DNA of 46,488 nt from an uncultured Bacillota bacterium (lineage in GTDB: Bacteria > Bacillota_I > Bacilli_A > RF39 > UBA660), in assembly GCA_946407495.1 (NCBI GenBank), contig CAMJOB010000001.1:73549-120036 (forward strand), read 5' to 3'. Positions 4,599-41,581 of this stretch are shown piece after piece. Below the pieces are notes generated by a model. It made no database searches. It was not told where the DNA came from and saw nothing but the letters and a program-made list of their open reading frames with translations. The stretch's first letter is position 1, and the number at the start of each line of letters is the position of its first letter. Position numbers and translations under genes: made by a program.

Positions 4599-7500
4599 GT
4601 CAATTATGTTCAATAACTGATGAAGTAAGAAAAAAGATTGAAACAGATATAGCTAATCTATGTTTTGAGGCAGGTGAATTAGACCTGTCCTCAACATAGA
4701 TTAAATTAAATTTTAAATCTTTATTTCAAACTTATAAGGATTATGTTCCTTTAAATGATGTAGTTAGCGAAATCGTTAAAGTTGCTAACAATTATGGAAT
4801 GATGGGAGAAGCATTTTTCTTTGATGATGAAAGAGAAATAGAAAACATCATTCAAGAAGCAAATACTTTAATTCCAAGTGAAGTTGATACTGCATCTACT
4901 GAAAAACTATTAGATGCAAATAGAAACGTTTTAGGTAAAGACGTTAAAAAAGATTTTTTAATTAGAGCTTATGGAACTGCTGTTGATGTTAGATTAAAAG
5001 TAGAAAAAGAAGCTTCTATTGCATTGTTTAATTCTATGATAATAGATAGAATTAACGGAAGAACTATGTCTTCAGTACACGAACTAAATAACAACATAAG
5101 AAATTATCAACAAGAATTATTTGATAATGTTATTTCTTATTTAAAAGATTATTATCTTAATGCTCCTGGTTTAGGATTTGATATTAGTATATTTGATGAT
5201 ACTACTATGTATAAGCCTGATGAACAAGGTAATATACAATATACAGGTATTGTTAATAAACTTGATTCAGTAATTCAAAAACAACTCGCTCGTGATAATT
5301 TTCCAGATGGAATGTTAGAAAAATTATCAACAAGTGAAAAATCAGAAGATCAAAATAAATTAAAAGCGTATAACTCTTGGCAAATTCTCACTCACTTTGA
5401 TTCTTTTATGAAAATAAGATATGGTGAAGCTATCGAAATTACAGATTTCGGTGATATGAGATTTACAGGAGAAAATAAATATAACCGTTCTGCAAAAGGA
5501 ACAAAGAATAACACTACTTGGAGAAATAGTGATGAAATAAAACTTAATGAAGAAGTTGATAATATTATTCAAGAACTTGTAAATACTACTCCATTATTAA
5601 CATATGAAACTGATACTCAAATAGGTTACTTAGATTTTGCAACCTTTTCTGATATATTAGGACGTATTAAAGAATGTGTATATGATGGAGATGATATTTT
5701 ATTTGATGATAATTTCATTGAAAAATATGAGGACTCATTATCTTTATATACTCAAAGAGTAATTAAAGATAAATCATTTAAGCAAATTATTAATTCTATT
5801 AGATTAAATCCTCAAAAGTATTTAAGTGCTTTATTTGAAATATTATCTAATCAAAGAACTTTCGATGCTATCACTTCTGATACAGGTGTATTTAATAAAT
5901 TTAGAATTGAAGATAAAAACGTTATTTATTCTATACATAAAGGTATTACAAGTAGCTATGATCTTACAGCAGTAAATGCTATTGTTGGATCAGATAAAAC
6001 TAATACTATTTATGAAGAAATGGCACAAGCTTGTGATTCTATTTTTAAAATTAATTTCTTACAATATTATAAAGGACAAGACGGACTTGTAAAAGTAAGA
6101 AATATGAATAATACAAGACTTGATACATTACTTCGTAGTATTAGACAAGCTGCTAAAGCTAAAAATAATAAATTAGTTCCTGGTCAATGTATTGATAACG
6201 GAAATGATACTTATATTATAAAAGGAACTACAATTACTTATAAAAAGAACAAAGATGGAAACTTTAATGGTATTGAATTTAATATTCCAAATACTTCTAT
6301 TAAAGTTGAAGTTAATATAGACGGTAAAGTTTCTTATAATGTAAATGGTAAAAATGCAACAAGTTTAACACTTTATAGTAAAAGTTATAATAAATCAGAT
6401 TTATTTGATTTTATTAATAACGTTTTAGGACAAAATATTTCTGAAACAACATTAGAAAATATGCAAAGTTCACAATTAAGTACAAATCTTACAAATTTAA
6501 CTAACTTTGCATCAAGAATATTATTTAATTCTATTGTTTCTAATGTTACTCTTAAAGGATTTAACTTTGTTACAACAATAAAATCTCGTCTTTCAAATGT
6601 TTTTGGAGAGAACCATAATTACAGAATTGATAAAAATATGAAAGAGATTGATTTAATACACAGTAGTGATATTAATACAATCGAATCACTTGCTAATGCT
6701 ATTGCAATAGAGCAAGGTCTTTTATCATCTTCACAAATTAAAAGTGGATCTGGAAGTGCTCAATCTCAACAATCTTTAAGTCGTCTTTTAGGTGGTATAC
6801 AATCTCAATTTAGTCTACAAAATAAAAGCATTAACTCAGCTACTAAAAACGCAATGATTCTTGACACTAAATTATTAAAAGGTGTTTATACAGCACGTGA
6901 ATATTATGATTTACTAACTGTAAGAGATCATACAAAATTCAATGTAAATGAATTTGAGACTTCAATGTTCTTATATGATTTTATAGGAGGTTTAATACCT
7001 AATAATGATTATAATCGTTTAATAGGAAATGGAACTATTGCTTTAATTCCTTCTGTAAACTCTGATAAAAATACTATTGGTCGTATACTTATTGATTTAA
7101 ATTATAGAGTTAAAATAGGTAATGAAGAAAAAGCACTTCGCGATTTAACTCCAAGTGAATTAGAAGGATTAATTTGTAGAGAATTAGGTGACATTTATAG
7201 GAACGTTGAATCTAAAATTAATTCTGATTTTGATACAGTATTAGCTGGAACACAAAATTCATTACGTTATACACAAAATTCATTTGATGCATTTAATGAA
7301 AAACATAAAATTGTTGATCCTGAGACAGGAAAAGTTAAATATGATTCAGCTCGTGCATTAAATAGATTAATTAAAGACTATAATTTAAGAAATAGACATA
7401 AACCTGTTTCAATAACAGACCAAATCCATTTTATAACTAATAAAGATGGAAGTATTTCTCCAAATAAAAATATATTACAATATATTGATCAATTTGTAGA

Positions 7501-10500
7501 TGAACCACAATATATTGGAGAAATTACACAATTCCATCAATTTATGAACCATAAAAGAGCAGACGTTCTTGGAACATTATTACGTTCTAATTTTAAAGTT
7601 GATTTAACAGAAAATACTCCTATTACAACATATCTAAAAGAACAAAATAAAAATTGGATTGACGATAAACATGGAGAATTAATATTAGGACGTGTTAAAA
7701 TAAATGGTATTGAACATGACATTAGAACTAAAACTGATTTAATAAGAATTAAACAGAAATTACTTGAACATCTTAATTCTGAGTTAGTTAATTTAGGAAA
7801 AGAGGTTGATGTTAATAATTATATAGGTTTAAAGAAAAAAGTAGGACAAACTCCTGAAGATTTAGCAAAAATTAAACAATTTGAAGAAACTGATTTAATT
7901 AGAAATTATAATGATGTTATATACGCATTAGATAAACTTGCAAATTCTGATCTTCTTTATGAACCTCAAGTATTAACAGGTTTAGAAAACTTCAATGTTG
8001 AATTTAAATTAAATCCACTTGTAGACCAATATAACACTCTTGATTATTTATTTACTCAAGAATTTATGATTTCTACAGTAGGAACTCTTGCTGCACATCC
8101 TCTTAAAAAATCAGATGGAAATATAGAACATGACGAAGCTGGACGTTTCCAAGCTCAGCACAAACGTAATGTATCTATGACTGCTACTATGCAAGAGTTT
8201 GCTTTAGGATTAATAAATGGAATACCTACTGACTATAATATTGCTGTTATTGATGATGTTAAAGATGTTCAATATAACGTAACAGGAGATATTGATGATG
8301 GTATTAAACCATTTGACGGTGCTACTTTTGTAAATCCATTTATAGTTCATCTTGAAAATAATTCTCTTGGTGCTGCTAAAGCTGGTATTACTAAGAAACA
8401 ATTCGTTCATTTCTATGATGAAGGAACTGCAAACGGCGGTATTATTAAAACTGCAGGTTTCGGACTTACTAATGACTGGATTAGAACATCACCTTTCATG
8501 GAAAAAATGATGTATAAAATGACACAAGGTAAATGGTTTGGTCCAAATGGTGAACCTGTTGTTGTTGATATATTAGGTGGAATACAAAAGAGAATACAAG
8601 TTCCTTACTATTTTAGAAAAGGAAATAAATATTATAAAGTAACTCAAATAGTAAATAAAGGTAATAATAGATATGATGTTCTTGGTGGAATGGTTAGAGT
8701 TTATAACCCAGAAGGAACATTAAAATGTGAATTAACTAGAGATGTTGATGAAACAGAAGTAGTTAATTTAAATAATTTATTTACTGAAGACGTTGAAGGT
8801 GGAGTTCTTGTTGATTCTAACTATAGTTTATGGAATTTATTTGGAGGTAAAAATTCTGTTGAAGTTATAAACGGAAAATTAGTTCCTTCTGAATTTTCTA
8901 TTAAAAATGTAGTAACTGCAATGAATACAATAGGTTTAAATCCTAATACAGGAGCAGAACTTACTGAAGAAGAAATTGCTAACATTAGAACACAAGACGA
9001 TGTATATCAACCTTTAAAACATTCTGATATTCATTATATGCCTACAGTTGGTGCTGTTAAACAAGGTGCTGCAAACATAAATACAAAGGATTTATTCTTT
9101 AATGATGAACCTTTAAACTTTATGAAAATCCATATGTATCAAGCAGGTATTCAGCTTGATAAAGAGCATCACGCAGACGGATCTGAACTATCACTTATGA
9201 CACAGGTTATGAATGCTTGTGCACATAAAGGATTCTCTCTTGATGATTCTATGGAAATGTATAGAGCATTAAGAACACTTACTGATATAGGAACAAGTGA
9301 ATTACTTGAACCAATTAAAGAGTATATTAATGATGAAAATGTTGACACTCAAAAAGCAATTGTTGAAGCTACTGTTAATACAGTTGTTAAAGCATTAGCA
9401 AGACAATCAATGAGTGAAAATGATTTACTTTCTGTTTTCGCATCTGAATTAATTGATAAAGTTAAAACAGGACAAAAATTAAAAACTGAGGATTTCTTAG
9501 AGAAACTTCCAAAAGATAATCCTGCTGTATATGCTAAATTCTTATCAACAGTTTCTGTATTCTTAACAAATTCTGGTATTAAAATGAAAATTCCAGGAAT
9601 CTTATCAGTTCTTACTCCATCGTATAATATTATGCAAATGTATACTATACCAAAGGGAACAAACCCAGATGGTTCAATTAGATACATTGATGTAAAGTAT
9701 GAACAATTAGAATATAACGAAGACGGAATATCTGCTGAAGAATATCTTCAAGCAATACAACAAAATGCACCTGTTGTACTTGAAACAACACTTGACGAAA
9801 ACGGACAACCTGTACAAAATATAAACTTCAATTATTTAGAAATAGGTAAAACTTATATAATTGATGGAAAATCTGTACAGATTAAAACTCCAAGACAACG
9901 TAGTGATATAAAAAGACGTATATTACAAGGAGGTTATACTTCTATAGTTCAAGACCTTACAGTAGGTCACGAATTAGGAAACTATGATGTATTATTTAAA
10001 GGTAATATTGGAGAAAATAGTTATGATTATTCATTATGGGATTTAGACTCTGTTAGAGCATTGTTTGATTTAAAAGAAATACTTGATGAAAAGGATTTCC
10101 TTAAACAACAAGAACTTTATTCTGTATTTAAACATAACTATGAACATCTTTTACCTAATGGAGAATTTGATTATAAACAATTAGAGAAATATCTACGTAA
10201 ACTTGTTAGACAAGATAACTTAGTTTTATCAGAAAACGGAAACGATTTTACTGATAAACAAACAGTCTTAATTGATGGACAAGAAGTCTTAGTTAATAAA
10301 ACAAGTATTAAGTCAAAACCTTACGAATTAATTCTTCCTAAAATATTTATTAATGAGTTTGGACTTGATCAATATGATCAATTAACTGATATAGCTAATG
10401 ATCCAGATTTCTTTACTTATAAGTTGATTAATAACATTAAACCTACTGCTGATGAAAGTAATTATAGTATTGCTTTATTAAATGGTAGTAAAAATAAGTT

Positions 10501-11161
10501 TACAGGAAAACTAAATCATTATTATATTGCAACATATCCAGAACAAATAAATGGTTTAACTGAATTAAAAATTGATAAATTTTCAGAAAATGGAAACTTA
10601 TACAGAATTGATTCAGATGGAAATCAAATACATTCGTTATCAAGTCAAGAAGATAAAATCTATATTGATAGCTTAGGTAATGAAATAATTTACACTAAGA
10701 ACCCTGGTTTTTATGTTAATCACTTAAATTATACAACAGCTAAAATTTCAGAAACATCTGATCCTGAATTTACATCTGCTGAATTATTTAAAGTAAGTAA
10801 AAATAAATCAGCAAACAGATTTTATCAATTCTTAACTCAAGGTACTGTAGAAGATTCTGATATTTGGGATGAAGAGGCTTTAACTAAATTAAATACTCAA
10901 ATCATTAAAGAACAAAATAGTAAAATTGATGATATTATAGACATTGATAGTGATAATGATCATCCTCTTGCTAACTATTTAAAAACTTTAGGTAGAGAAA
11001 TGCATTCTTCTTTCTTAAAATCATTAGAAACAGTTGCTTCTCGTACACCTTCTCAATCAATGCAATCATTCATGCCTATGAAGATTGTAGCATTTGATAA
11101 CCCAAATATTAATACTGCTTTCGTATCTACAGCACAGATTTGGTTACAAGGTTCTGACTAT
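4595..11161 (+). CDS. crAss-like phage RNA polymerase, exon 1
   Basis: ATG at 4595, TAG at 4697 read through, open to ...RTPSQSMQSFMPMKIVAF...STAQIWLQGSDY; this resembles the beta-prime RAPTLHRLGIQAFEP...NADFDGD region and continues across the intron as DYDIDAVSI. Confidence 0.87.
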
Positions 11162-12254
11162 TGAATTTCAGTCCGAAATTGACATACGAACCTTTGAATT
11201 AATTCATAAATCGTTGTAGTCATTAAATCTCGTGAACTGACGGGAAACTCCTTAGAGTCTTTTCTACTAATTTATGATAGAAATATACATAAAGGCTTTA
11301 TTTAACTAATAAAGGTATAGTAAAAAAGAAAAGAATTGGACAATCCGCAGCTAAGCATCCTAGATGCAAAAATTAAATATAAGACTTGTAAATTGATGCA
11401 AAATTTTATATTTTTATTTTGTATAAGGATGAAAGTTCATCGACTATCCCAAAAGGGAGTAGAGAGCTTTCATTTAAGTTTAATATTAAAATTTAAATGA
11501 AATGGCAAGAAAAATTAAAAGAAAACTTACTAAAGAACAAAAATCTCTATTAATTTCAATGTTAATTGGAGATGGAACAATCACAAATCATCCAGATTAT
11601 AAATTATCACATTCAGAATCTCAACGAGAATTTTTAGAATGGAAAATTAAATTATTAGAAAAATATGGTTTTGAACATGGTGGTTTAAAAGAATATATAT
11701 CTAAATGTGGATATAATTTAGGAAACAAAGTTTTATATGTTAGAATAAAAACAAATCCTACAATTAAAGCATTAAGAAGAAGTGTTTATAAACCAAAGAA
11801 AACTTTTACTAGAAATTTATTAAATTGGTTAAATCCGTTAGGATTAGCTATATGGTATATGGATGATGGATGTATTAATGTTAATACTTCTATTCAACGT
11901 AGTTCTATACAACATACTTGTAAAATTGCTACTTGTGTAGATGAAGAAACAATTAATATGATGATTACATATTTTAAAGAAATTTGGAATATTAACTTTA
12001 GACCTTTTAAAGAAGGAAAAAATACATATTCTTTAGCAACATCATCTGAACAAGATTGCATAAATTTCGTAAATATAATTAAACCATATGTAGAACAAGT
12101 TCCATCTTTATTATATAAAATTAGAGATAACTTTACAAAAGAAGAATTTATTGCTTATCAGAAAACTGATAACTTTCGAAGCGCGAGACATATAATTGGA
12201 AATTAATTATATGAAGATATAGTCAGTCATATATTGAAAAATATATGGTAAACG
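11162..12254 (+). other. Group I intron inside the RNA polymerase gene
   Basis: Canonical core elements in order: P-like AACTGACGGGAAACTCC (11235-11252), Q AATCCGCAGCTAAG (11342-11355), R GTTCATCGACTATCCC (11435-11450), S AAGATATAGTC (12214-12224). GACTAT (11442-11447) pairs with ATAGTC (12219-12224) as P7. Last base G (omega-G). Removing 11162-12254 restores the frame. Splice sites are inferred. Confidence 0.92.
11502..12206 (+). CDS. Intron-encoded LAGLIDADG-type homing endonuclease
   Basis: 234 aa; two LAGLIDADG-like motifs (SLLISMLIGDGTI and LGLAIWYMDDGCI); lies between intron elements R and S (P8 loop). Confidence 0.92.
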   Translation: MARKIKRKLTKEQKSLLISMLIGDGTITNHPDYKLSHSESQREFLEWKIKLLEKYGFEHGGLKEYISKCGYNLGNKVLYVRIKTNPTIKALRRSVYKPKKTFTRNLLNWLNPLGLAIWYMDDGCINVNTSIQRSSIQHTCKIATCVDEETINMMITYFKEIWNINFRPFKEGKNTYSLATSSEQDCINFVNIIKPYVEQVPSLLYKIRDNFTKEEFIAYQKTDNFRSARHIIGN

Positions 12255-15200
12255 GATATTGATGCTGTATCTATTGCAGCATATGATATTGATAAGAGCG
12301 GTAGACTTCCACTTTGGTCTCCTTATGCAGATTTAAGTTCTTTATAGAATATTAACGATTCTATGAAACTACCTTTCCCAACTGGAAAGAATGTAGAACT
12401 TAAAGATATATCAGAAGACGCAACAGATGATGAAAAAGCAGAATTTAATTCTGATGCTCTAAACTACTTTGGCAATTTAATTAATAAATATTCTGATTTA
12501 TTTAATTTTAGAACAAGAAAAAACACTTCACATATTTACTTAAAACAAAATCCTAATTTAACTTTATTATCTGAATTTATTAAAGAAGTTAATGAAAATG
12601 GACTTTATCAATTAAATGATAAATTAAATGAAAGATTATCTAAGGCTTTAAGAATGAAGAAGTGTAATTTTACAGAAGAATTTACATCAATAATTAATGA
12701 ACATAATAATTATCTTAGTAATGTAAGTAATAATAAATTAATTTCTATTGCTAAAAATTATTCTATGTATAAGATGTATAAGATTATTGATACAGCTGCA
12801 AATCTTACTCAAGCACAATCTTCTGTAGATGCTATGACGGGTCCTGTTAAAAATATTACTAAGAACTTTAAAGTTGGTAAACTTATTAATGAACGTACAC
12901 CTGGTAATGTATTTAATAAAGCAGAATCTATCGAAGATAACCAAGTTGGTAAAGATGGTATTAGTATCTGTGCCGTTGGTATGAAAACTTTCTTCGGATT
13001 AACAGAATATTTCAATTATGTTGTTAATAGACCTGTAATAGGAACCGATGAAGAACGTGAAGCAATTAGAAAACAAAAGGATAGAATTGCATTAGGAAGA
13101 AATAAAGAAATAAAAATCTATGTTCCTGGTGAAAAAGGAGCTAGAATTTATAAATATTTCGCTAATATAAATCCTAAGATAGGATCTGAATTATATGATA
13201 CATTATCTGAAACTTATGATGATTCTGATGCGGCTCTAGATTTGTCTGCTTTACTTTCACTTGCTACTGATAATGCTAAAGAGTTACAGTTAAGTAAATT
13301 AAACGCAGGCATTAAGACATTAGGAATGTATGTTTTTGGTGTTTCTATTGGAATGGATATAGAATCAGTATCTAAAATCATGACTTCTGATGTTGGTTTA
13401 TTATTAACAGATCTTACAAAGAGTAACGTATTCACAGGAGAAAAAGGTATATTCTCTATATCAAAAGTTTTCGATTATCTTGAAACAGGTCCTCGTGATA
13501 CGCTAAGTAAATATGATGAAACTAAAATTGTAAACAACAAAGTAGTTCCAAATTATATTGAATACTTATCTAAATCTTTAGGATTGAAATATGGAGTACA
13601 AAATTTGTCTCCTTATTATTTATTTGCTAAATTTGCTTGGGATAAATCAATAAATCTATATGATAAAATTGAAATACTCGAATCATTAAAAGGATTATAT
13701 AAATACGGAAATACTACAAAAGAAGTAGCCGTTGAAGATAAACAAAAATATAATCAACTTATTGATGAATTAGAAGAGTATATAAGACAAGTAAATATAG
13801 TTAAAGAAAATGAATGGACTTATAATTCATTAAAAACACTTTCTGAAGGTGCTGAGGAATTAAAAATATTAGGACAAATATTTGGTCTTAATAAAGGTTT
13901 ACCTACAAAACCAGAAGAAATAATTTCAAAAGTAATTGATTTAGAAAATGTAATTAGAAATAGAAATCAAGCTATAATAGATGCAAATCATAGAATAGCT
14001 GTTAGATTAAGTCTATTAGAAAATAAAGATGTTCCAAAAAAGGCAGAAAATGGATATGAGGCTTTCGATCTTGTTCGATTCTATACTGATGAAGAATACA
14101 GAAATCAATGTATTGAAAACTATGATAACGTAAAAGCATCTGTTAATGTTTTAGATGCAGTATTCACAGTTCCTCATTTTTCTGGTTATTTACAATCTTT
14201 AGTTGTAGCATATAAATCAAGTTTAGAAACAAGTAATAAGTTTAAAACCACTGTTGAAATAGGAACATATTTATTAGAAGAAGGTTTAGTTGGAAATACA
14301 AGTAAAGATAAACAAGATTTATTCAAAGGAATTGCTAATTATTATTCTGATTATGTAAGACGTAAATGGATGTTAAGAAATCTTCCATCTATTAAAATAC
14401 CAAAAGGTATAAAAAGTATAGCTAATGGAAAATTAATAGATGAAGAATGTGAAATTAAATTAGGAACTGCTTCTGGTGATGCTTCATTTAAGTATATTAT
14501 GGAAAATATAATTATACCTAATTTACAAAAAGGTTCACTTGGAGAAAATGGAACTACTAAAAATATTTCTGATAACAGATTTATTAAAGCGTTAACAGTT
14601 TCAATATTAACAAACACAGTTACTCACAATCCTATTATTAACTACACACTTCCTATTAATATGTTACCTTCTTCTGATGAAGAAAGAGGTGTATTTAATA
14701 GTTATAAATCAGAATTTAATAAACTTCAAGGATATTCATATAATCTTAATGGACAAAATATTCCATTAGTTGATTTATTCTATTATTATGGATTAATTGC
14801 TCATTACGGTAAGCAAGGACAACAATCATTAATGCCAATTTTTGAAAATCTACATGATAATCCTCAATATAAATTATCAGATTTTCATAAATTTGAGTCA
14901 TCTTTTGATGAAAAAGTTCCACTTGATCAACTTGAACTTTTCCCATATATACTTAAAGTTCAAAATCCTTATGCAGCAACAGGTAGATACATTTATACAC
15001 AAGATCCTGAAACACTTCACACTGAACTTTGGGAAAAATTAAATAGTAGATTTTATAGAGAAGATATTGAAGCTTTAGCAGCAAGTGAAAACATACCACC
15101 TGCAACAGCTTGGTATAGAATACAAAAATCTATGGGTGCTATAAATGGATATGCTAAAAAAGTAAATTTAATCATTAGAAATATAGATGTAAGTAATTAT

Positions 15201-15482
15201 TACATGGTTCCTAGTGATAGGCTTTTATCTGTTGAAAACGAAACTAGAAAGGAAACAATACGTATTGAAGATCATGTTGTTGGAGAAGTTAGATTTAATC
15301 CTATTGATTGGGATGTTAAGTCTCTTGAAGAAATTGGAATAAAACATGATTTATTAACAAAATATCCATAGTATTTGAGTAAAATGCCTACTAAGGAAAT
15401 AGATGGTAAAACAGTAGCAGATTTAGATTATTACGCTTCATTATATGAACAAGCATTAATGGAGGAATTAAGAACGTGTTAA
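12255..15482 (+). CDS. crAss-like phage RNA polymerase, exon 2
   Basis: Starts DIDAVSIAAYDIDKSGRLPLWSPYADLSSL(TAG)NINDSMKL...; TAG at 12345 and 15369 read through, TAA at 15480-15482. Confidence 0.87.
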
Positions 15483-25113: not shown

Positions 25114-26487
25114 TTACTTATTTTTCCAAGGTTCTAAAGGAGCCTCATCACATTTAATACTAATTTTAGGAAATAATCTACATTTAATTACACAAGTATC
25201 TTGTATAATTTCTTGTATTTCTTCAGAGTCTTTATATGCCATAGGAGATTCATCAATGGTATTTTCACTGACAGAAGTAGAATATATGTTTGACATAGTA
25301 TTCTTAAACTCTTCCATTGATAATGTTTCTTTTGCTTTAGATCGAGACATTTTACGTCCAGCTCCATGAGCACAAGAATTTAACCAATTATCGTTTCCAA
25401 CTCCAATACATATTGCAACACCATCTCTCATATTAAATGGAACAATCATAGGTTCTCTGAATTTTGCACTAATTGCAGACTTTCTAAGAATATGATCTTC
25501 CAAATCAATAAAATTATGCGATGTATGTACAATTTCCTTTACTTTAATATCATATTTATATAAAATTCCACTTATGATATTTTGTACAACTCTATGATTA
25601 TATAAAGCATAAAGTTGTCCGAAACACATATCTATTAGATAGCCTTTCATATTTTCTCCTGTTAAATAACCAGGAATAAGTTTAGCTTTTTCTTGTTCTA
25701 TAACCTCTGATAAAGCTGATTGAAAGTCCTTCATATCAGAATGTGTTTTCTTATACTCTTCTTTGAAGTTTTTAGTAATTTCTTTTAGTTTTGATTTATC
25801 AACACCTTTTCCTGCTTTTGCAGTCCAATACTTACAAATCTTAACTCCAAAGTTTCTTGAACCAAAATGAAGAGTTATAGCAGAAGAATATTCAGTATCG
25901 TCAGATTCATCATATTCAATGAAATGATTACCACCGCCTATAGTTCCGAGAGATTTATAAAACACACCTTCATCCATACCAAGACGTTTAAGTTGTGATG
26001 AAATCCACTCTTCTGTTACAGTTGTTGGCAAATCATTAAGCATTTCAGGCCAATACTGACGATATATATTGAAATTTGTTGATAAAAATTTATAGAAATC
26101 CTTTTCTTGTAAATAATTAGAAAGTATTCTATTTGCTTTAAAAATAGAAATATCTCTAATATTAGTACCCATTGGGATTTCTTTTTTAATTTTATGCTCT
26201 ATTTCAGCATATTTTTCAACAGGTATCTTTTTATTAAGAACCATCATTGATACAGTACAACCTATATCAACACCAACGTGTTCTGGACAAATCCAGTCAC
26301 CAATTTCAGCACATAGTCCACAAGGACCAGATGCTCCAACATGAACATCTGGCATAAGGACTACTTTTTTATCTTTGAAAGCTGGACAATTGATTATATC
26401 ATATATTTGAGAATATACACCATCTTCTATAGTTTTTGCGTATATTTCTGCTTTAGTATATTTTCCTTGTATTACTATTGGATCCAT
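25114..26487 (-). CDS. rtcB: RtcB family RNA-splicing ligase
   Basis: MPDVHVGASGPCG, EHVGVDIGCTV, TIGGGNHFIE, LHFGSRNFG, TSHNFIDLE, GAGRKMSRSKAKE motifs. Confidence 0.97.
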   Translation of the reverse strand: MDPIVIQGKYTKAEIYAKTIEDGVYSQIYDIINCPAFKDKKVVLMPDVHVGASGPCGLCAEIGDWICPEHVGVDIGCTVSMMVLNKKIPVEKYAEIEHKIKKEIPMGTNIRDISIFKANRILSNYLQEKDFYKFLSTNFNIYRQYWPEMLNDLPTTVTEEWISSQLKRLGMDEGVFYKSLGTIGGGNHFIEYDESDDTEYSSAITLHFGSRNFGVKICKYWTAKAGKGVDKSKLKEITKNFKEEYKKTHSDMKDFQSALSEVIEQEKAKLIPGYLTGENMKGYLIDMCFGQLYALYNHRVVQNIISGILYKYDIKVKEIVHTSHNFIDLEDHILRKSAISAKFREPMIVPFNMRDGVAICIGVGNDNWLNSCAHGAGRKMSRSKAKETLSMEEFKNTMSNIYSTSVSENTIDESPMAYKDSEEIQEIIQDTCVIKCRLFPKISIKCDEAPLEPWKNK

Positions 26488-35277: not shown

Positions 35278-36024
35278 TTAATATTTTGTATAAAATGTTT
35301 TTTGAAAAGCTTTAAGATTAGGACCACCTGGAATAGCGAAAATAATTTTTTCAAAACCGTAATCCTTGGTATCTAACAAATGTTTAAAAGTCTGTGATAC
35401 AAAAGTAGGATCATTTTCAAATACTCCACAACCAAAAGCTCCAAGAATGAAAGTCTTAACTCCTTGTGCTTTTGCTGTTGATAGAACAAAATCAATACGT
35501 TGACGCATTGCGTGTTCAATATCTTTAGTATCTACATTATAGTTTTTACGAGCAACCTTAGCGTTAGGTGCAGCACAAGTAAGAACATCACACTTAGCAA
35601 TTGGATTGTATTCTGTGTCTACAAAAACAACGTCTGGAGAATATAATGCAAAGTTTTCGTATAAATCATAATTATTACAAAAACTATTTTTAACATATTC
35701 GTTTTTAAATTCCTTTAATATGTTGTAAAGGAATGAATCTTTACAAATCCATTCTTCTTGTGCAAGATGTACTTCTTTATAACCAAAACTACCTCCAGGA
35801 TGTCGGAAAGAAGCAAAATTTAAACAACAAAGTCTTTTTGAATCTTTGTATTTAGTAATTGCATCAGATGTTGTTAAAGCTTCTACTGTAATATCTATGT
35901 TAGTCGGATTAAAATCCGACATAACACGATATACACTTGTATTATTAATACAATTTTTAATTTCTTTACTGAACAACTCTTCCATTTTGGCAGTATGTTC
36001 ATGAGATTCATAAAAGTATGCCAT
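35278..36024 (-). CDS. DUF2263 / microbial PARG-like (TIGR02452-type) protein
   Basis: NFASFRHPGGSFGYKEVHLAQEEWICKDSFLY and ILGAFGCGVFENDP match the PARG-type macrodomain pattern. Start set at MAYFYES (36024) to avoid overlap. Confidence 0.88.
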   Translation of the reverse strand: MAYFYESHEHTAKMEELFSKEIKNCINNTSVYRVMSDFNPTNIDITVEALTTSDAITKYKDSKRLCCLNFASFRHPGGSFGYKEVHLAQEEWICKDSFLYNILKEFKNEYVKNSFCNNYDLYENFALYSPDVVFVDTEYNPIAKCDVLTCAAPNAKVARKNYNVDTKDIEHAMRQRIDFVLSTAKAQGVKTFILGAFGCGVFENDPTFVSQTFKHLLDTKDYGFEKIIFAIPGGPNLKAFQKTFYTKY

Positions 36025-36026
36025 AT

Positions 36027-36359
36027 TTATTCGTAATAAGCAATAGAGTCTAAAATACAATAAGGTGTTGTAGTATAAAGATCCTTTACTGGAGCAATAC
36101 GAGGAAATTGTGAAGAACTAAAAATTTCTTCAATTTCATCATCTGTATATTGTGGTTCATATACAATATCTCCTATTTCATTATCAGGATATTCGTCTTT
36201 AGTATATTCACAAACTTCAATCTTTTCGTCTGAGAATACGTCTTTAAAATGATTTCTTATATCCTCTGCAGACTCGCCTCCAACAAATACATAATCAATT
36301 GCATATGATGTGAAACATATGTCAATTCTAAATACTTGATATAATTTCTTTTCTCCCAT
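36027..36359 (-). CDS. Hypothetical protein
   Basis: 110 aa ORF. Confidence 0.75.
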   Translation of the reverse strand: MGEKKLYQVFRIDICFTSYAIDYVFVGGESAEDIRNHFKDVFSDEKIEVCEYTKDEYPDNEIGDIVYEPQYTDDEIEEIFSSSQFPRIAPVKDLYTTTPYCILDSIAYYE

Positions 36360-36361
36360 AA

Positions 36362-36847
36362 TTAATTACTTTTTATATAATGATAAATTGTATTATCTGG
36401 TACTTCATCATCATAAGGATTAGGATCTTCATTATCATTTCCTGTCATTATATACGATGTAGGTGAAAATAGATAGTTAAAAAGATAATCTTCATCATTG
36501 AAAATATCTTTTATAAAGTCTATAAGTTCATAAACATGATCAATTCCATACCAATCACTATCATTATCATGATCAATTTCTACTTCCACTCCAAGTTTTT
36601 CAAGAAACTTAATTAGTTTATTGATATATCTTTCTTGTTCATCGTTTTTAAAACATTCAAGTATACCTGTATAAAGATATGATACTCTATCCTCAATATC
36701 ATGATATATTCTATTTTCCCATCCAAATTCCTTCCTTACTATACATAAACTTTTTGGAATATTACTTAATGGTTCTTTAGTAATTACAATACTATGTACA
36801 GAACTTGAATTAGTTTCAAAGAGATTACGTCTAATTTGTTGTTTCAT
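36362..36847 (-). CDS. FETNSSS-family protein 4 of tandem array
   Basis: MKQQIRRNLFETNSSSVHSIVI; internal YLFNYLFSPTSYI shared with paralog. Confidence 0.88.
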   Translation of the reverse strand: MKQQIRRNLFETNSSSVHSIVITKEPLSNIPKSLCIVRKEFGWENRIYHDIEDRVSYLYTGILECFKNDEQERYINKLIKFLEKLGVEVEIDHDNDSDWYGIDHVYELIDFIKDIFNDEDYLFNYLFSPTSYIMTGNDNEDPNPYDDEVPDNTIYHYIKSN

Positions 36848-37326
36848 ACGTCTTCAATATTAAACTTTATTAAATTTGTTGGCTTTACTATTTGCTCTTC
36901 CCAATAATTGTTATCGTAACAACCAATGTATGAATCTTCACTGAAAAGATAGTTCATTAGTGTTGTACTATTCTCAAGAATATCAATTAGAAAATCTGAT
37001 ATATCATATATATCGTTAATAACATCTCTAAAGAAAGGATATTCAAGAGGATTAGTAAAGATACACTTTATATTAAATTCTTGAAGATACTTTTTGATTT
37101 TATTCATGTCTTCTACTGTATCATCAGAAAAAGCTATTATTTGCCTATAAAGGAAATTAGCTTTCTTTTGTACAGTATCAGGAGAACAATAATCAATTGG
37201 TTCCAGTTCAAATTTTATTTCTTTGGGAAGATCCTCGTAAATATTTTGTCCATGATTTCCAATAACAAGAGTATGTACTGAACTTGAATTGGTCTCGAAA
37301 AGACCTCGTCTTATTTGTACTTTCAT
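36844..37326 (-). CDS. FETNSSS-family protein 3 of tandem array
   Basis: MKVQIRRGLFETNSSSVHTLVI; start at 37326 by family alignment rather than 37350; ATGA coupling to the next gene. Confidence 0.88.
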   Translation of the reverse strand: MKVQIRRGLFETNSSSVHTLVIGNHGQNIYEDLPKEIKFELEPIDYCSPDTVQKKANFLYRQIIAFSDDTVEDMNKIKKYLQEFNIKCIFTNPLEYPFFRDVINDIYDISDFLIDILENSTTLMNYLFSEDSYIGCYDNNYWEEQIVKPTNLIKFNIEDV

Positions 37327-37327
37327 A

Positions 37328-37609
37328 TTAATCGTGTCCGTAATAACCAAATGCTACTATTTTATCACCAGATGGAGAAGTATACTTTTCAAAGAAGGTT
37401 TCATATTCATCACCAAAATCTTCAAAATTTGATATCCAATCTGGATCATAATTCTCTATTTCTGAAATAGGAATTAGTCGATCTTCGTCATAACTATAGA
37501 AAAGCTTTCCTTCTCTCCATTTATCAATTTCACTTTCTGGCACAATAGTTAAACTGTGCACAGAAGATGAATTTGTTTCAAAAAGACCATGTCTAATTTG
37601 TACTTTCAT
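37328..37609 (-). CDS. FETNSSS-family protein 2 of tandem array (short)
   Basis: MKVQIRHGLFETNSSSVHSLTI. Confidence 0.88.
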   Translation of the reverse strand: MKVQIRHGLFETNSSSVHSLTIVPESEIDKWREGKLFYSYDEDRLIPISEIENYDPDWISNFEDFGDEYETFFEKYTSPSGDKIVAFGYYGHD

Positions 37610-37611
37610 AA

Positions 37612-38154
37612 TTAATAAATTAAAATTTTCATACCATCAGAAGAATAAGCTTCATCAGAATAGATTAAACTATTTTCTCCTGTGATATATGTTTTAAAAA
37701 CATCAATAAAATTCTTCATATTGATCTTGTCACATTCAAACCAAGTTCCCTTATTTTTTATAGATTCTTCATCAATAATAACATCTGTTATATTTTCATG
37801 TCCTCGACGTTTAAGTTCAGAAAGAATTATATCTTTAACATCTTCTATGAGTGCATCATTTGGATGAAGATTATTAAAAAGATAATTAAGTAAAACTTGT
37901 ACTTTAGCTTCCCAATTCATAAATATGATATACACACTAGATTCTTCATATCCAGAAGGAAGGTCAAGACCTTCAACAACTACAATGTTATTATAATCAT
38001 CAAAATTGAGTCCATAATCAAATTCAGATTCATCAATATTCTTCCAAAATATATGCTTAATTGTATCTTCAATCTTATTAGATTCACAACAAGTTAAAGA
38101 ATGTGTAGAACTTGAATTCGTTTCAAATATTCTAGGTCTAATTTGTAACTTCAT
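37612..38154 (-). CDS. FETNSSS-family protein 1 of tandem array
   Basis: MKLQIRPRIFETNSSSTHSLTC; start at 38154 by family alignment, overlapping the end of the radical SAM gene by 17 nt. Confidence 0.87.
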   Translation of the reverse strand: MKLQIRPRIFETNSSSTHSLTCCESNKIEDTIKHIFWKNIDESEFDYGLNFDDYNNIVVVEGLDLPSGYEESSVYIIFMNWEAKVQVLLNYLFNNLHPNDALIEDVKDIILSELKRRGHENITDVIIDEESIKNKGTWFECDKINMKNFIDVFKTYITGENSLIYSDEAYSSDGMKILIY

Positions 38155-39034
38155 TTTTAGATGTAATAAATTTAAACATTTCATCAATAGTCTTATCTCC
38201 AATAGGGTATCTTTCAGAAGCAATAGAATTTTTAGAAAACTCACCTTTTACCATATCTATATAAAAAGTGTATTTACCATCATCACCCATGTAGAACTCT
38301 TCCCATTCTTTATCACTAAGAAGTCTTTTAACATCAAGTTGATTTAGAGAAAGATTATCGAATGAAATAAGTTGAAAATAATTATTAGCAATAATCTTTG
38401 GAAGTTCTTCTTTAAGATACTTCCAATTCTTATCAATAATATATTGGTTATCATCACTATATGATATTCCTCTTTGAAGATATTTATATCCAAGTACAAG
38501 AACTTTAAGGTTGTTTCCTTTCAGCTTGTTTATATCATCTTCAGAAAGAATACCATTAATAGTGTGAAGTACAGCATTTGGTATTTCTTTAATCTTATCA
38601 ATAAAATCTTGATTATAATGATTATAAGAAATACCAATACCGTAAATTAATTTGTTATCAATAAGCCTTTTAATAAAATCGTAATTATTTATAAACTGCT
38701 TTTGATGAACAGTAATATTTGCAAATACTTTTTTAGTTTTAAGGAAATTAAGGAACTCTTCAAGTTGTGGATGATTTAAATCATTTCCATTAAGTGCCAT
38801 TTCGGTATAAGGATGTAGTGTTTCAATAAATTTATACTTAAATAAATCACCATGTTTACCTTCCTTAGTACATCCTTCATAACACCAAGGACATCCAATT
38901 GAACACTTATCTGTAATTTTTACATCACAATTTTCAGCAAATGAAGGAATAAATTCATCATCATTTGTCTTTCTTATTTTAGTTCCATCTTGAAGAATTA
39001 CAACTGTATAATTTCCGTTTTTATAAATATTCAT
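38138..39034 (-). CDS. Radical SAM protein
   Basis: DVKITDKCSIGCPWCYEGC (CxxxCxxC) followed by MALNGNDLNHPQLEEFL; terminates at TAG. Confidence 0.87.
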   Translation of the reverse strand: MNIYKNGNYTVVILQDGTKIRKTNDDEFIPSFAENCDVKITDKCSIGCPWCYEGCTKEGKHGDLFKYKFIETLHPYTEMALNGNDLNHPQLEEFLNFLKTKKVFANITVHQKQFINNYDFIKRLIDNKLIYGIGISYNHYNQDFIDKIKEIPNAVLHTINGILSEDDINKLKGNNLKVLVLGYKYLQRGISYSDDNQYIIDKNWKYLKEELPKIIANNYFQLISFDNLSLNQLDVKRLLSDKEWEEFYMGDDGKYTFYIDMVKGEFSKNSIASERYPIGDKTIDEMFKFITSKNEVTN

Positions 39035-40468: not shown

Positions 40469-40981
40469 TTAATTATTAAATAAAGAAATAAAATCTTCTA
40501 CATCGAGATAATCTATACCGAAATTTTTGGCAGTCTTCTTATCAGAATCTGAAAAATCCCCAGGTTTACCCGAAGCATCACCTACCATTAGCATTGTTTC
40601 TTTAGTATTTAAAATGCTATATTTTCTAAGTAATGTTTCAAGCATTGCTATATTAGGTTTTCTGTATTCATTAGCTTTATCATCATTGGTACAATACATA
40701 CCATCTACGATTATATTAGTATCACCTAAATAATCAAAAATTGCTTGCTTTACATATTCAAATTTAGCAGCAAAAGATTTTCGATTTACAAATCCTTTTT
40801 CGATTCCTCCTTGATTTGATACAATAAATATATATTCTGGTTTAAGTTTGTCTAATGTACTTAATACTCTAAGATCAATTTCCATATCCCAAACACCAGC
40901 TGGAAATGTCTTTCCAGATATAGTATTTATTATTGTTCCATCAAGGTCGAAAAATAGTACGTTTTTATTTGCAATATCCAT
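40469..40981 (-). CDS. PNKP-type polynucleotide 3'-phosphatase (HAD superfamily)
   Basis: FFDLDGTIINTISGKTFP, VSNQGGIEKG, YRKPNIAMLE, VGDASGKPGDFSDSDKKTAKNFG. Confidence 0.92.
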   Translation of the reverse strand: MDIANKNVLFFDLDGTIINTISGKTFPAGVWDMEIDLRVLSTLDKLKPEYIFIVSNQGGIEKGFVNRKSFAAKFEYVKQAIFDYLGDTNIIVDGMYCTNDDKANEYRKPNIAMLETLLRKYSILNTKETMLMVGDASGKPGDFSDSDKKTAKNFGIDYLDVEDFISLFNN

Positions 40982-40984
40982 TTA

Positions 40985-41581
40985 TTAAATTTTACTAAAT
41001 GTTAAACTTCCTAAAGCATTACCTACAATTGCTATTAAAATAAACATTCCAGCATGATAATCAAAATCTATAGCTTCTTTGAACTTATACATCATAAAAT
41101 ATCCATAATCAGCAATACAATGCTCAAAGCCACAAAGTATGAAGAACATAATAGGCATGATAACTGCAATTGGATTTCCTGTTTTCTTCCATCCATTTAC
41201 TGCAAAATACATCATTGCTCCACATCCCCATGATAAGAATAGAGTACTATACCATTCTTGATGTAGCTTATTACTAACTATCATATTTACCGCAGATAAA
41301 TCAAGATTAGTAATATTAGCAAAACCGCACACTAAAGCTATACCAATGAAATTGAAAAGAATCATTGGTGAACAATCTACAAAATCATCGTAATTTTTTA
41401 TGTACCCCACCCTTCCTGTATAAAGAGGATATTCTTTAATAAGAATTGTTAAAAGTCCGAGTGAAAATAAAAATGCACCGAGTATATGATTTTCAGATAC
41501 TACATAAATAATATCTCCTAATCCAATTAATACACCCGCTAAAAGAGATTTAATATAAAAATTTAATCTAAATTCAATCAT
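40985..41581 (-). CDS. Formate/nitrite transporter (FNT/FocA)-like membrane protein
   Basis: SLLAGVLIGLGDII, GAFLFSLGLLTILI...LYTGRVG, LSWGCGAMMYFAV, FILCGFEHCIADYGYF; several hydrophobic segments. Confidence 0.85.
   Translation of the reverse strand: MIEFRLNFYIKSLLAGVLIGLGDIIYVVSENHILGAFLFSLGLLTILIKEYPLYTGRVGYIKNYDDFVDCSPMILFNFIGIALVCGFANITNLDLSAVNMIVSNKLHQEWYSTLFLSWGCGAMMYFAVNGWKKTGNPIAVIMPIMFFILCGFEHCIADYGYFMMYKFKEAIDFDYHAGMFILIAIVGNALGSLTFSKI

Follow-up and report, generated by a model that had tools for sequence, protein, structure and literature searches.

Coupling of a radical SAM enzyme to proteins with a shared N-terminal FETNSSS tag in large phages and bacterial chromosomes

Among peptide-modifying radical SAM enzymes, the folds closest to that of the enzyme analysed here (hereafter RSAM) are those of SuiB, with its partner SuiA (streptide; PDB 5v1t), and of the EpeE/YydG-type epimerases (8ai1-8ai6), and these systems share with our locus a small genetic unit composed of an enzyme and a peptide-bearing partner. 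RSAM differs from them in having no auxiliary-cluster cysteines, and its partner (hereafter F) is a folded protein with an N-terminal tag. The anaerobic sulfatase-maturating enzymes (anSMEs), which produce formylglycine, also direct radical SAM chemistry at a short fixed motif within a folded protein, as we propose here. However, F proteins carry ExNSSxxH rather than (C/S)xPxR and have no sulfatase domain, their motif is N-terminal and common to unrelated folds, and RSAM lacks the extra cluster cysteines of these enzymes as well. In borosin-type precursors such as OphMA, substrate and modifying enzyme lie in one self-modifying chain; two of the natural RSAM-F fusions described below (L028 and L055) resemble this arrangement, although enzyme class and chemistry differ. 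Both of our families already have PHROG entries, 16999 ('Fe-S oxidoreductase') for RSAM and 28997 (unknown function) for F, which record neither a function nor a mutual link. In Ma-LMM01, gp128 is annotated as an Fe-S oxidoreductase and the F gene, gp130, lies two genes away; our literature searches found no function for this oxidoreductase and no mention of 'FETNSSS'.

The window, a stretch of 46,488 nucleotides, appears to belong to a large phage contig of at least 120 kb. Its genes include Phage_gp49_66, RtcB ligase, PNK phosphatase, PARG and thymidylate synthase, the nearest relatives of its RSAM are on viral contigs (L010, at 59% identity), and an apparently identical stretch occurs in a second MAG contig filed as 'uncultured Tenericutes' (L057). 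The core of the module is the minus-strand gene for RSAM (39034-38138, 298 aa, with the cluster motif CSIGCPWC), which matched phrog_16999 at an E-value of 4e-33 and is followed on the same strand by four F genes. F1 (38154-37612, 180 aa, MKLQIRPRIFETNSSSTHSL) has a minority ('other') body in common with Lak phage homologues, and F2 (37609-37328, 93 aa, MKVQIRHGLFETNSSSVHSL) belongs to the 'short' body family (...TSPSGDKIVAFGYYGHD). F3 (37326-36844, 160 aa, MKVQIRRGLFETNSSSVHTL) and F4 (36847-36362, 161 aa, MKQQIRRNLFETNSSSVHSI) are members of the 'long' body family, the latter with its FGW, DH and NDN signatures, and they matched phrog_28997 at E-values of 1.6e-11 and 2.6e-19, respectively. 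A sequence-only reading of this DNA had described four near-invariant N-termini behind a radical SAM gene, and both the peptides it quoted and its positions for the five genes proved correct, as did a YLFS..SYI segment in at least two of the bodies, which we located in F3 and F4. It had also seen that the genes abut or overlap and that the first array member begins inside the RSAM gene; F1 indeed starts within the RSAM 3' end (17-bp overlap), followed by gaps of 2 bp (F1-F2) and 1 bp (F2-F3) and a 4-bp ATGA overlap (F3/F4). The N-terminal pattern common to F1-F4 is M(K)xQIRxxxFETNSSSxH. The codons of the motif differ synonymously among the four genes, which rules out a DNA-level repeat as the origin of the copies and indicates that selection acts on the protein and not on the DNA. 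The whole 1.14-Mb assembly holding the window contains the motif four times, always in the array (control, 0).

To describe the tag more broadly we tallied 393 distinct proteins collected with a relaxed pattern. Its E and second S were present in all 393, N and the first S in 392 and H in 389, and its R was nearly invariant too; the tolerant positions were the initial aromatic (F/W/Y), the T (T/S/I) and the third Ser (S/A/T/M). Nearly all F proteins have the start of the tag 8-10 residues from the N-terminus. Because many loci had been seeded on FETNSSS, an unbiased check was made by body: in loci found from RSAM, F proteins recognised by body profile alone had the motif in 103 of 111 cases. 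Of the remaining eight, two are truncated ends, one is an apparent frameshift, four have near-motifs and a single protein is without it. An F gene that looks frameshifted (L227:5048-5583) has the motif in one frame and the long body in the next.

The sequence-only reading had proposed counting how often a FETNSSS gene lies within 3 genes of this RSAM subfamily, and searches of IMG/VR and GTDB in both directions place the two close together well above chance. When loci were seeded on F and RSAM was sought within about 6 kb, it was nearby in 104 of 120 viral loci and in 50 of 64 loci from bacterial genomes. Loci lacking RSAM in the flank often had it elsewhere, with a strong match in 9 of 18 records searched whole (E ≤ 1.5e-65), and most of the records without any strong match were fragments. 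In the reverse direction, a search pattern for RSAM that was independent of the tag found F in 73 of 79 loci; in four of the six misses RSAM lay within 1.2 kb of the upstream contig end, in L257 a near-motif F (PETNSSSSH) sits beside a second RSAM on the other strand, and the sixth is L252. In a set of 50,697 phage records, the same 24 (15 Lak megaphages and 9 Microcystis phages and cyanophages) carry both an F4 homologue and a close RSAM homologue, with one further Salmonella phage matching part of RSAM only, and the pairing recurs in well over a hundred loci beyond these records. Nearest RSAM-F pairs were on the same strand in 157 of 157 cases, with a median gap of 4 bp and 126 pairs within 100 bp. 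The coupling of RSAM to F is thus real, two-way and strand-specific, and not a local accident.

With RSAM ahead of F, the window follows the rarer order (30 of 157 pairs). After collapsing the loci to 163 locus clusters, the commonest orders were long-short-RSAM (29), long-RSAM (19), short-RSAM (16) and long-long-short-RSAM (10), both main body types occurred together in 62 clusters, and one RSAM was accompanied by 1-6 F proteins of different bodies. We found no recurrent third partner, including a protease or exporter, in more than 11 of the 163 clusters; the commonest neighbours, named by eye, were nucleotidyltransferase-like, SPFH-like, methylase and NifS-like. In 8 of the 163 clusters (e.g., L027:6813-7988) the module has a NifS/IscS-like cysteine desulfurase gene nearby, again named by eye.

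RSAM and F are also found as natural fusions. In L055 a single 473-aa ORF has F followed by RSAM, and in L028 and L029 a 453-aa ORF has RSAM followed by F, so that the tag is internal; the motif is kept in both arrangements. Two fusions with opposite domain orders are hard to explain unless RSAM and F work together.

Some copies of the module are clearly chromosomal. Bacterial genomes seldom hold the pair (2 of 398 in the phylum of the window's own assembly, and 2 of 300 in the order to which one Planctomycetota carrier belongs). In Thermoguttaceae (L118/L119), where it is a lone two-gene unit, it is flanked by genes for a protein kinase, prismane, O-antigen ligase and UPF0047. The lone two-gene unit is also present in a set of gut Clostridia, as a single F with RSAM immediately after it, at scattered sites next to housekeeping genes (by eye: PFOR, rpoB, glyA, tRNA-synthetase), and the RSAMs of these Clostridia form one supported clade (96/93). 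Behind the same tag, eight of the Clostridia F proteins have a conserved Cys cluster, CxxxFxxGxLxxCxCGF, which may bind metal; loci with it include L082, L091, L095, L098, L102, L107 and L108. TIR-like proteins, recognised by eye, adjoin two chromosomal F-RSAM pairs (L102:8250-11285, minus strand, and L110:7522-8853, plus strand). These chromosomal copies among housekeeping genes, together with the two-way linkage and the fusions, make it very improbable that the motif serves to localise or package phage proteins (virion or phage nucleus) with RSAM as a bystander, even though large phages hold most copies and N-terminal targeting peptides are known in phages.

The F proteins vary in their bodies, which span 93-326 aa and comprise a long (about 173 aa), a short (about 125 aa) and a Clostridia-type (190-318 aa) family plus small groups, one of which includes the body of window F1. 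No homology was detectable between the long, short and Clostridia-type bodies (hhalign probability ≤ 1.7%), and selection on the tag is therefore not selection on one fold. An AF2 model of F4 built with 98 relatives in the alignment (pLDDT 90, pTM 0.85) predicts a compact alpha/beta domain from residue 16 on (90-98 pLDDT), whereas residues 1-10 are predicted to be disordered (pLDDT 56). The sequence-only reading had named, as what would overturn it, an established unrelated fold and function that accounts for the motif, and searches of Pfam, NCBIfam, PADLOC and the PDB found none: a PDB fold search with the F4 model returned nothing at E ≤ 0.001 (best TM about 0.2), on which a new fold is predicted for F4, Pfam, NCBIfam and PADLOC gave nothing meaningful for F beyond the one unnamed PHROG, and none of 64 F proteins had a Pfam domain above chance level. 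We put weak matches of F to Prim-pol 4 (E 0.005) and to CdiA (E 0.045) down to chance.

In a true RiPP system the tag would be a leader, and modifications would fall in the variable body (core) before processing and export. A conserved N-terminal leader ahead of divergent C-terminal parts, with several precursors for each maturase, matches this layout, and SuiB and EpeE are among the fold neighbours of RSAM. However, most of the bodies are folded proteins of about 100-330 aa, and genes for processing or export do not recur, so a classical RiPP fits poorly and we consider it improbable: the length of the bodies and the confident globular fold predicted for the long family are not those of a core, conservation within a body family (FGW, DH, NDN) resembles that of a folded protein, and no protease or transporter was recurrent in the 163 clusters. 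The sequence-only reading, which took the motif for a recognition or modification site (RiPP-like or protein-modifying) or a shared interaction tag, is partly supported by the genetic coupling and the fusions; its RiPP-like variant is the weaker one. The long family also has further conserved polar residues (D103-H104 and D138), as might be expected if RSAM and F were separate enzymes of one small-molecule (e.g., nucleotide) pathway with the motif as a catalytic loop, and the fold neighbours of RSAM do include GDGT-MAS, BlsE and viperin-like enzymes. That interpretation is likewise unlikely, since the short and Clostridia-type bodies lack such residues yet keep the motif, and pathway genes do not recur beside the pair.

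RSAM itself fits no curated family in Pfam, NCBIfam or PADLOC. Pfam Radical_SAM (PF04055) was matched by 18 of 24 diverse family members, the window copy itself weakly; 11 of the 24 matched NCBIfam viperin models (best E 7e-8), scores that many other radical SAM families equalled or exceeded, and the viperin and other anti-phage models of PADLOC gave no match for the module. C44, C48 and C51 were invariant in the 24 members, and two variants of the cluster motif (CxxxxxCxxC and CxxxxCxxC) occur in the family. The family alignment contains no fourth conserved Cys, no counterpart of the auxiliary [4Fe-4S] cluster cysteines of SPASM/Twitch maturases and none of the Cys hydrogen donor of EpeE-type epimerases. 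With no conserved Cys beyond the triad there would be no auxiliary cluster, which narrows the chemistry and argues against sactionine, formylglycine or Lys-Trp chemistry by known routes. The predicted RSAM domain (pLDDT about 97) has a radical SAM barrel fold, and its best match in a Foldseek search was SuiB with bound SuiA precursor peptide (5v1t, E 2e-6), followed by GDGT-MAS, BlsE, EpeE, AbmM, SpeY and PqqE; SuiB, EpeE and PqqE scored a probability of 1.00, although sequence identity in the fold matches is only about 12-17%. By its model, then, the enzyme appears to have a radical SAM fold closest to those of peptide modifiers. A conserved NGNYxVxIxxDGTKIR stretch within its first 35 residues could be a candidate RRE. 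Apparent inteins interrupt two RSAM genes (L190:8611-10701 and L191:5085-6008); one lies at the GGGN site (with LAGLIDADG_3) and the other at the third cluster Cys (with Intein_splicing), and G013 (holding L183) has an RSAM split near the cluster. Inteins tend to occupy active sites.

We propose that the tag is the site at which RSAM recognises and modifies F, with the bodies as alternative carriers, and give this a probability of about 0.5. RSAM and the F proteins would form one module, in which RSAM would recognise RxxxFExNSSxxH ahead of the first strand of the F body and bind it on every F protein of the operon. Its 5'-deoxyadenosyl radical would then alter a residue of the tag, and the folded bodies, which belong to no fewer than three unrelated families, would perform a downstream task once modified. 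Binding of the tag by RSAM is likely, and the odds that a tag residue is altered are about even. Which residue is altered, and what the modified proteins do, we infer: the invariant Ser of 'NSS' or the Asn would be the strongest candidates, given that natural variation is seen at the third Ser, the Thr and the Phe. In favour of the proposal are the two-way co-occurrence, the strand and gap pattern, the fusions, the conservation of the tag on unrelated bodies and the positions of the inteins in two RSAM copies; the predicted disorder of the tag in the F4 model and the presence of SuiB and EpeE among the fold matches point the same way. Against it, substrates are not usually fused to their own enzymes, sactisynthases, SuiB and anSMEs use an auxiliary cluster for which RSAM has no conserved Cys, and the predicted RSAM fold also matches small-molecule enzymes (GDGT-MAS, BlsE, AbmM).

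The chief rival to modification of the tag is that it serves as a docking peptide only and stays chemically unchanged, the F proteins being interchangeable adaptor or specificity subunits that bring RSAM its substrates. Domain fusions usually join subunits of one machine, and the association of one RSAM with one to six F proteins of different bodies would suit adaptors. For a physical view we modelled an in-frame F-stop-RSAM pair read through as one chain (L215, natural DNA, with the one stop as Gln; short F; pLDDT 90.9, pTM 0.77). In this model residues 1-10 are ordered as a strand (pLDDT 89), which is at most suggestive of docking, and residues 11-20, including NSS, are not (50). This mixed outcome counts against modification; the ordering of the first part would speak for docking and the disorder of the NSS part against it. 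The near-absolute E, N, S, S and H in phage and chromosomal copies is moreover stricter than in most docking peptides, and we regard docking alone as possible though rather unlikely.

In its widest form, which we hold only tentatively, the preferred reading of a modified tag would mean that proteins are modified post-translationally by a previously undescribed system. A minimal RSAM with a single cluster would modify one fixed N-terminal tag (RxxxFExNSSxxH) on at least three unrelated folds, and the system would be used by large phages and also, without phage involvement, by gut Clostridia and Planctomycetota. The orphan phage families PHROG 16999 and PHROG 28997 are joined here into one two-part module, found in bacterial chromosomes as well as in Lak megaphages and Microcystis phages. 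Should the tag prove to be modified, unrelated folds would share a portable modification site served by a compact RSAM without auxiliary clusters, which would be useful for chemistry and for the question of why large phages need radical enzymology in infection.

Several other genes of the window deserve mention. A microbial-type PARG (ADP-ribose) gene lies just downstream of the array (35278-36060), and genes for RtcB (25117-26487) and PNK phosphatase (40469-40981) are near it; together the three suggest an RNA-repair/NAD-related region. Two giant ORFs (4799-11164, 2121 aa, and 12363-15371, 1002 aa) have no Pfam or PHROG match, and a LAGLIDADG_2 endonuclease ORF (11502-12206) lies between them. 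The window, although probably from a phage contig, also encodes a formate/nitrite transporter (PF01226, E 2.6e-16) at 40985-41581.
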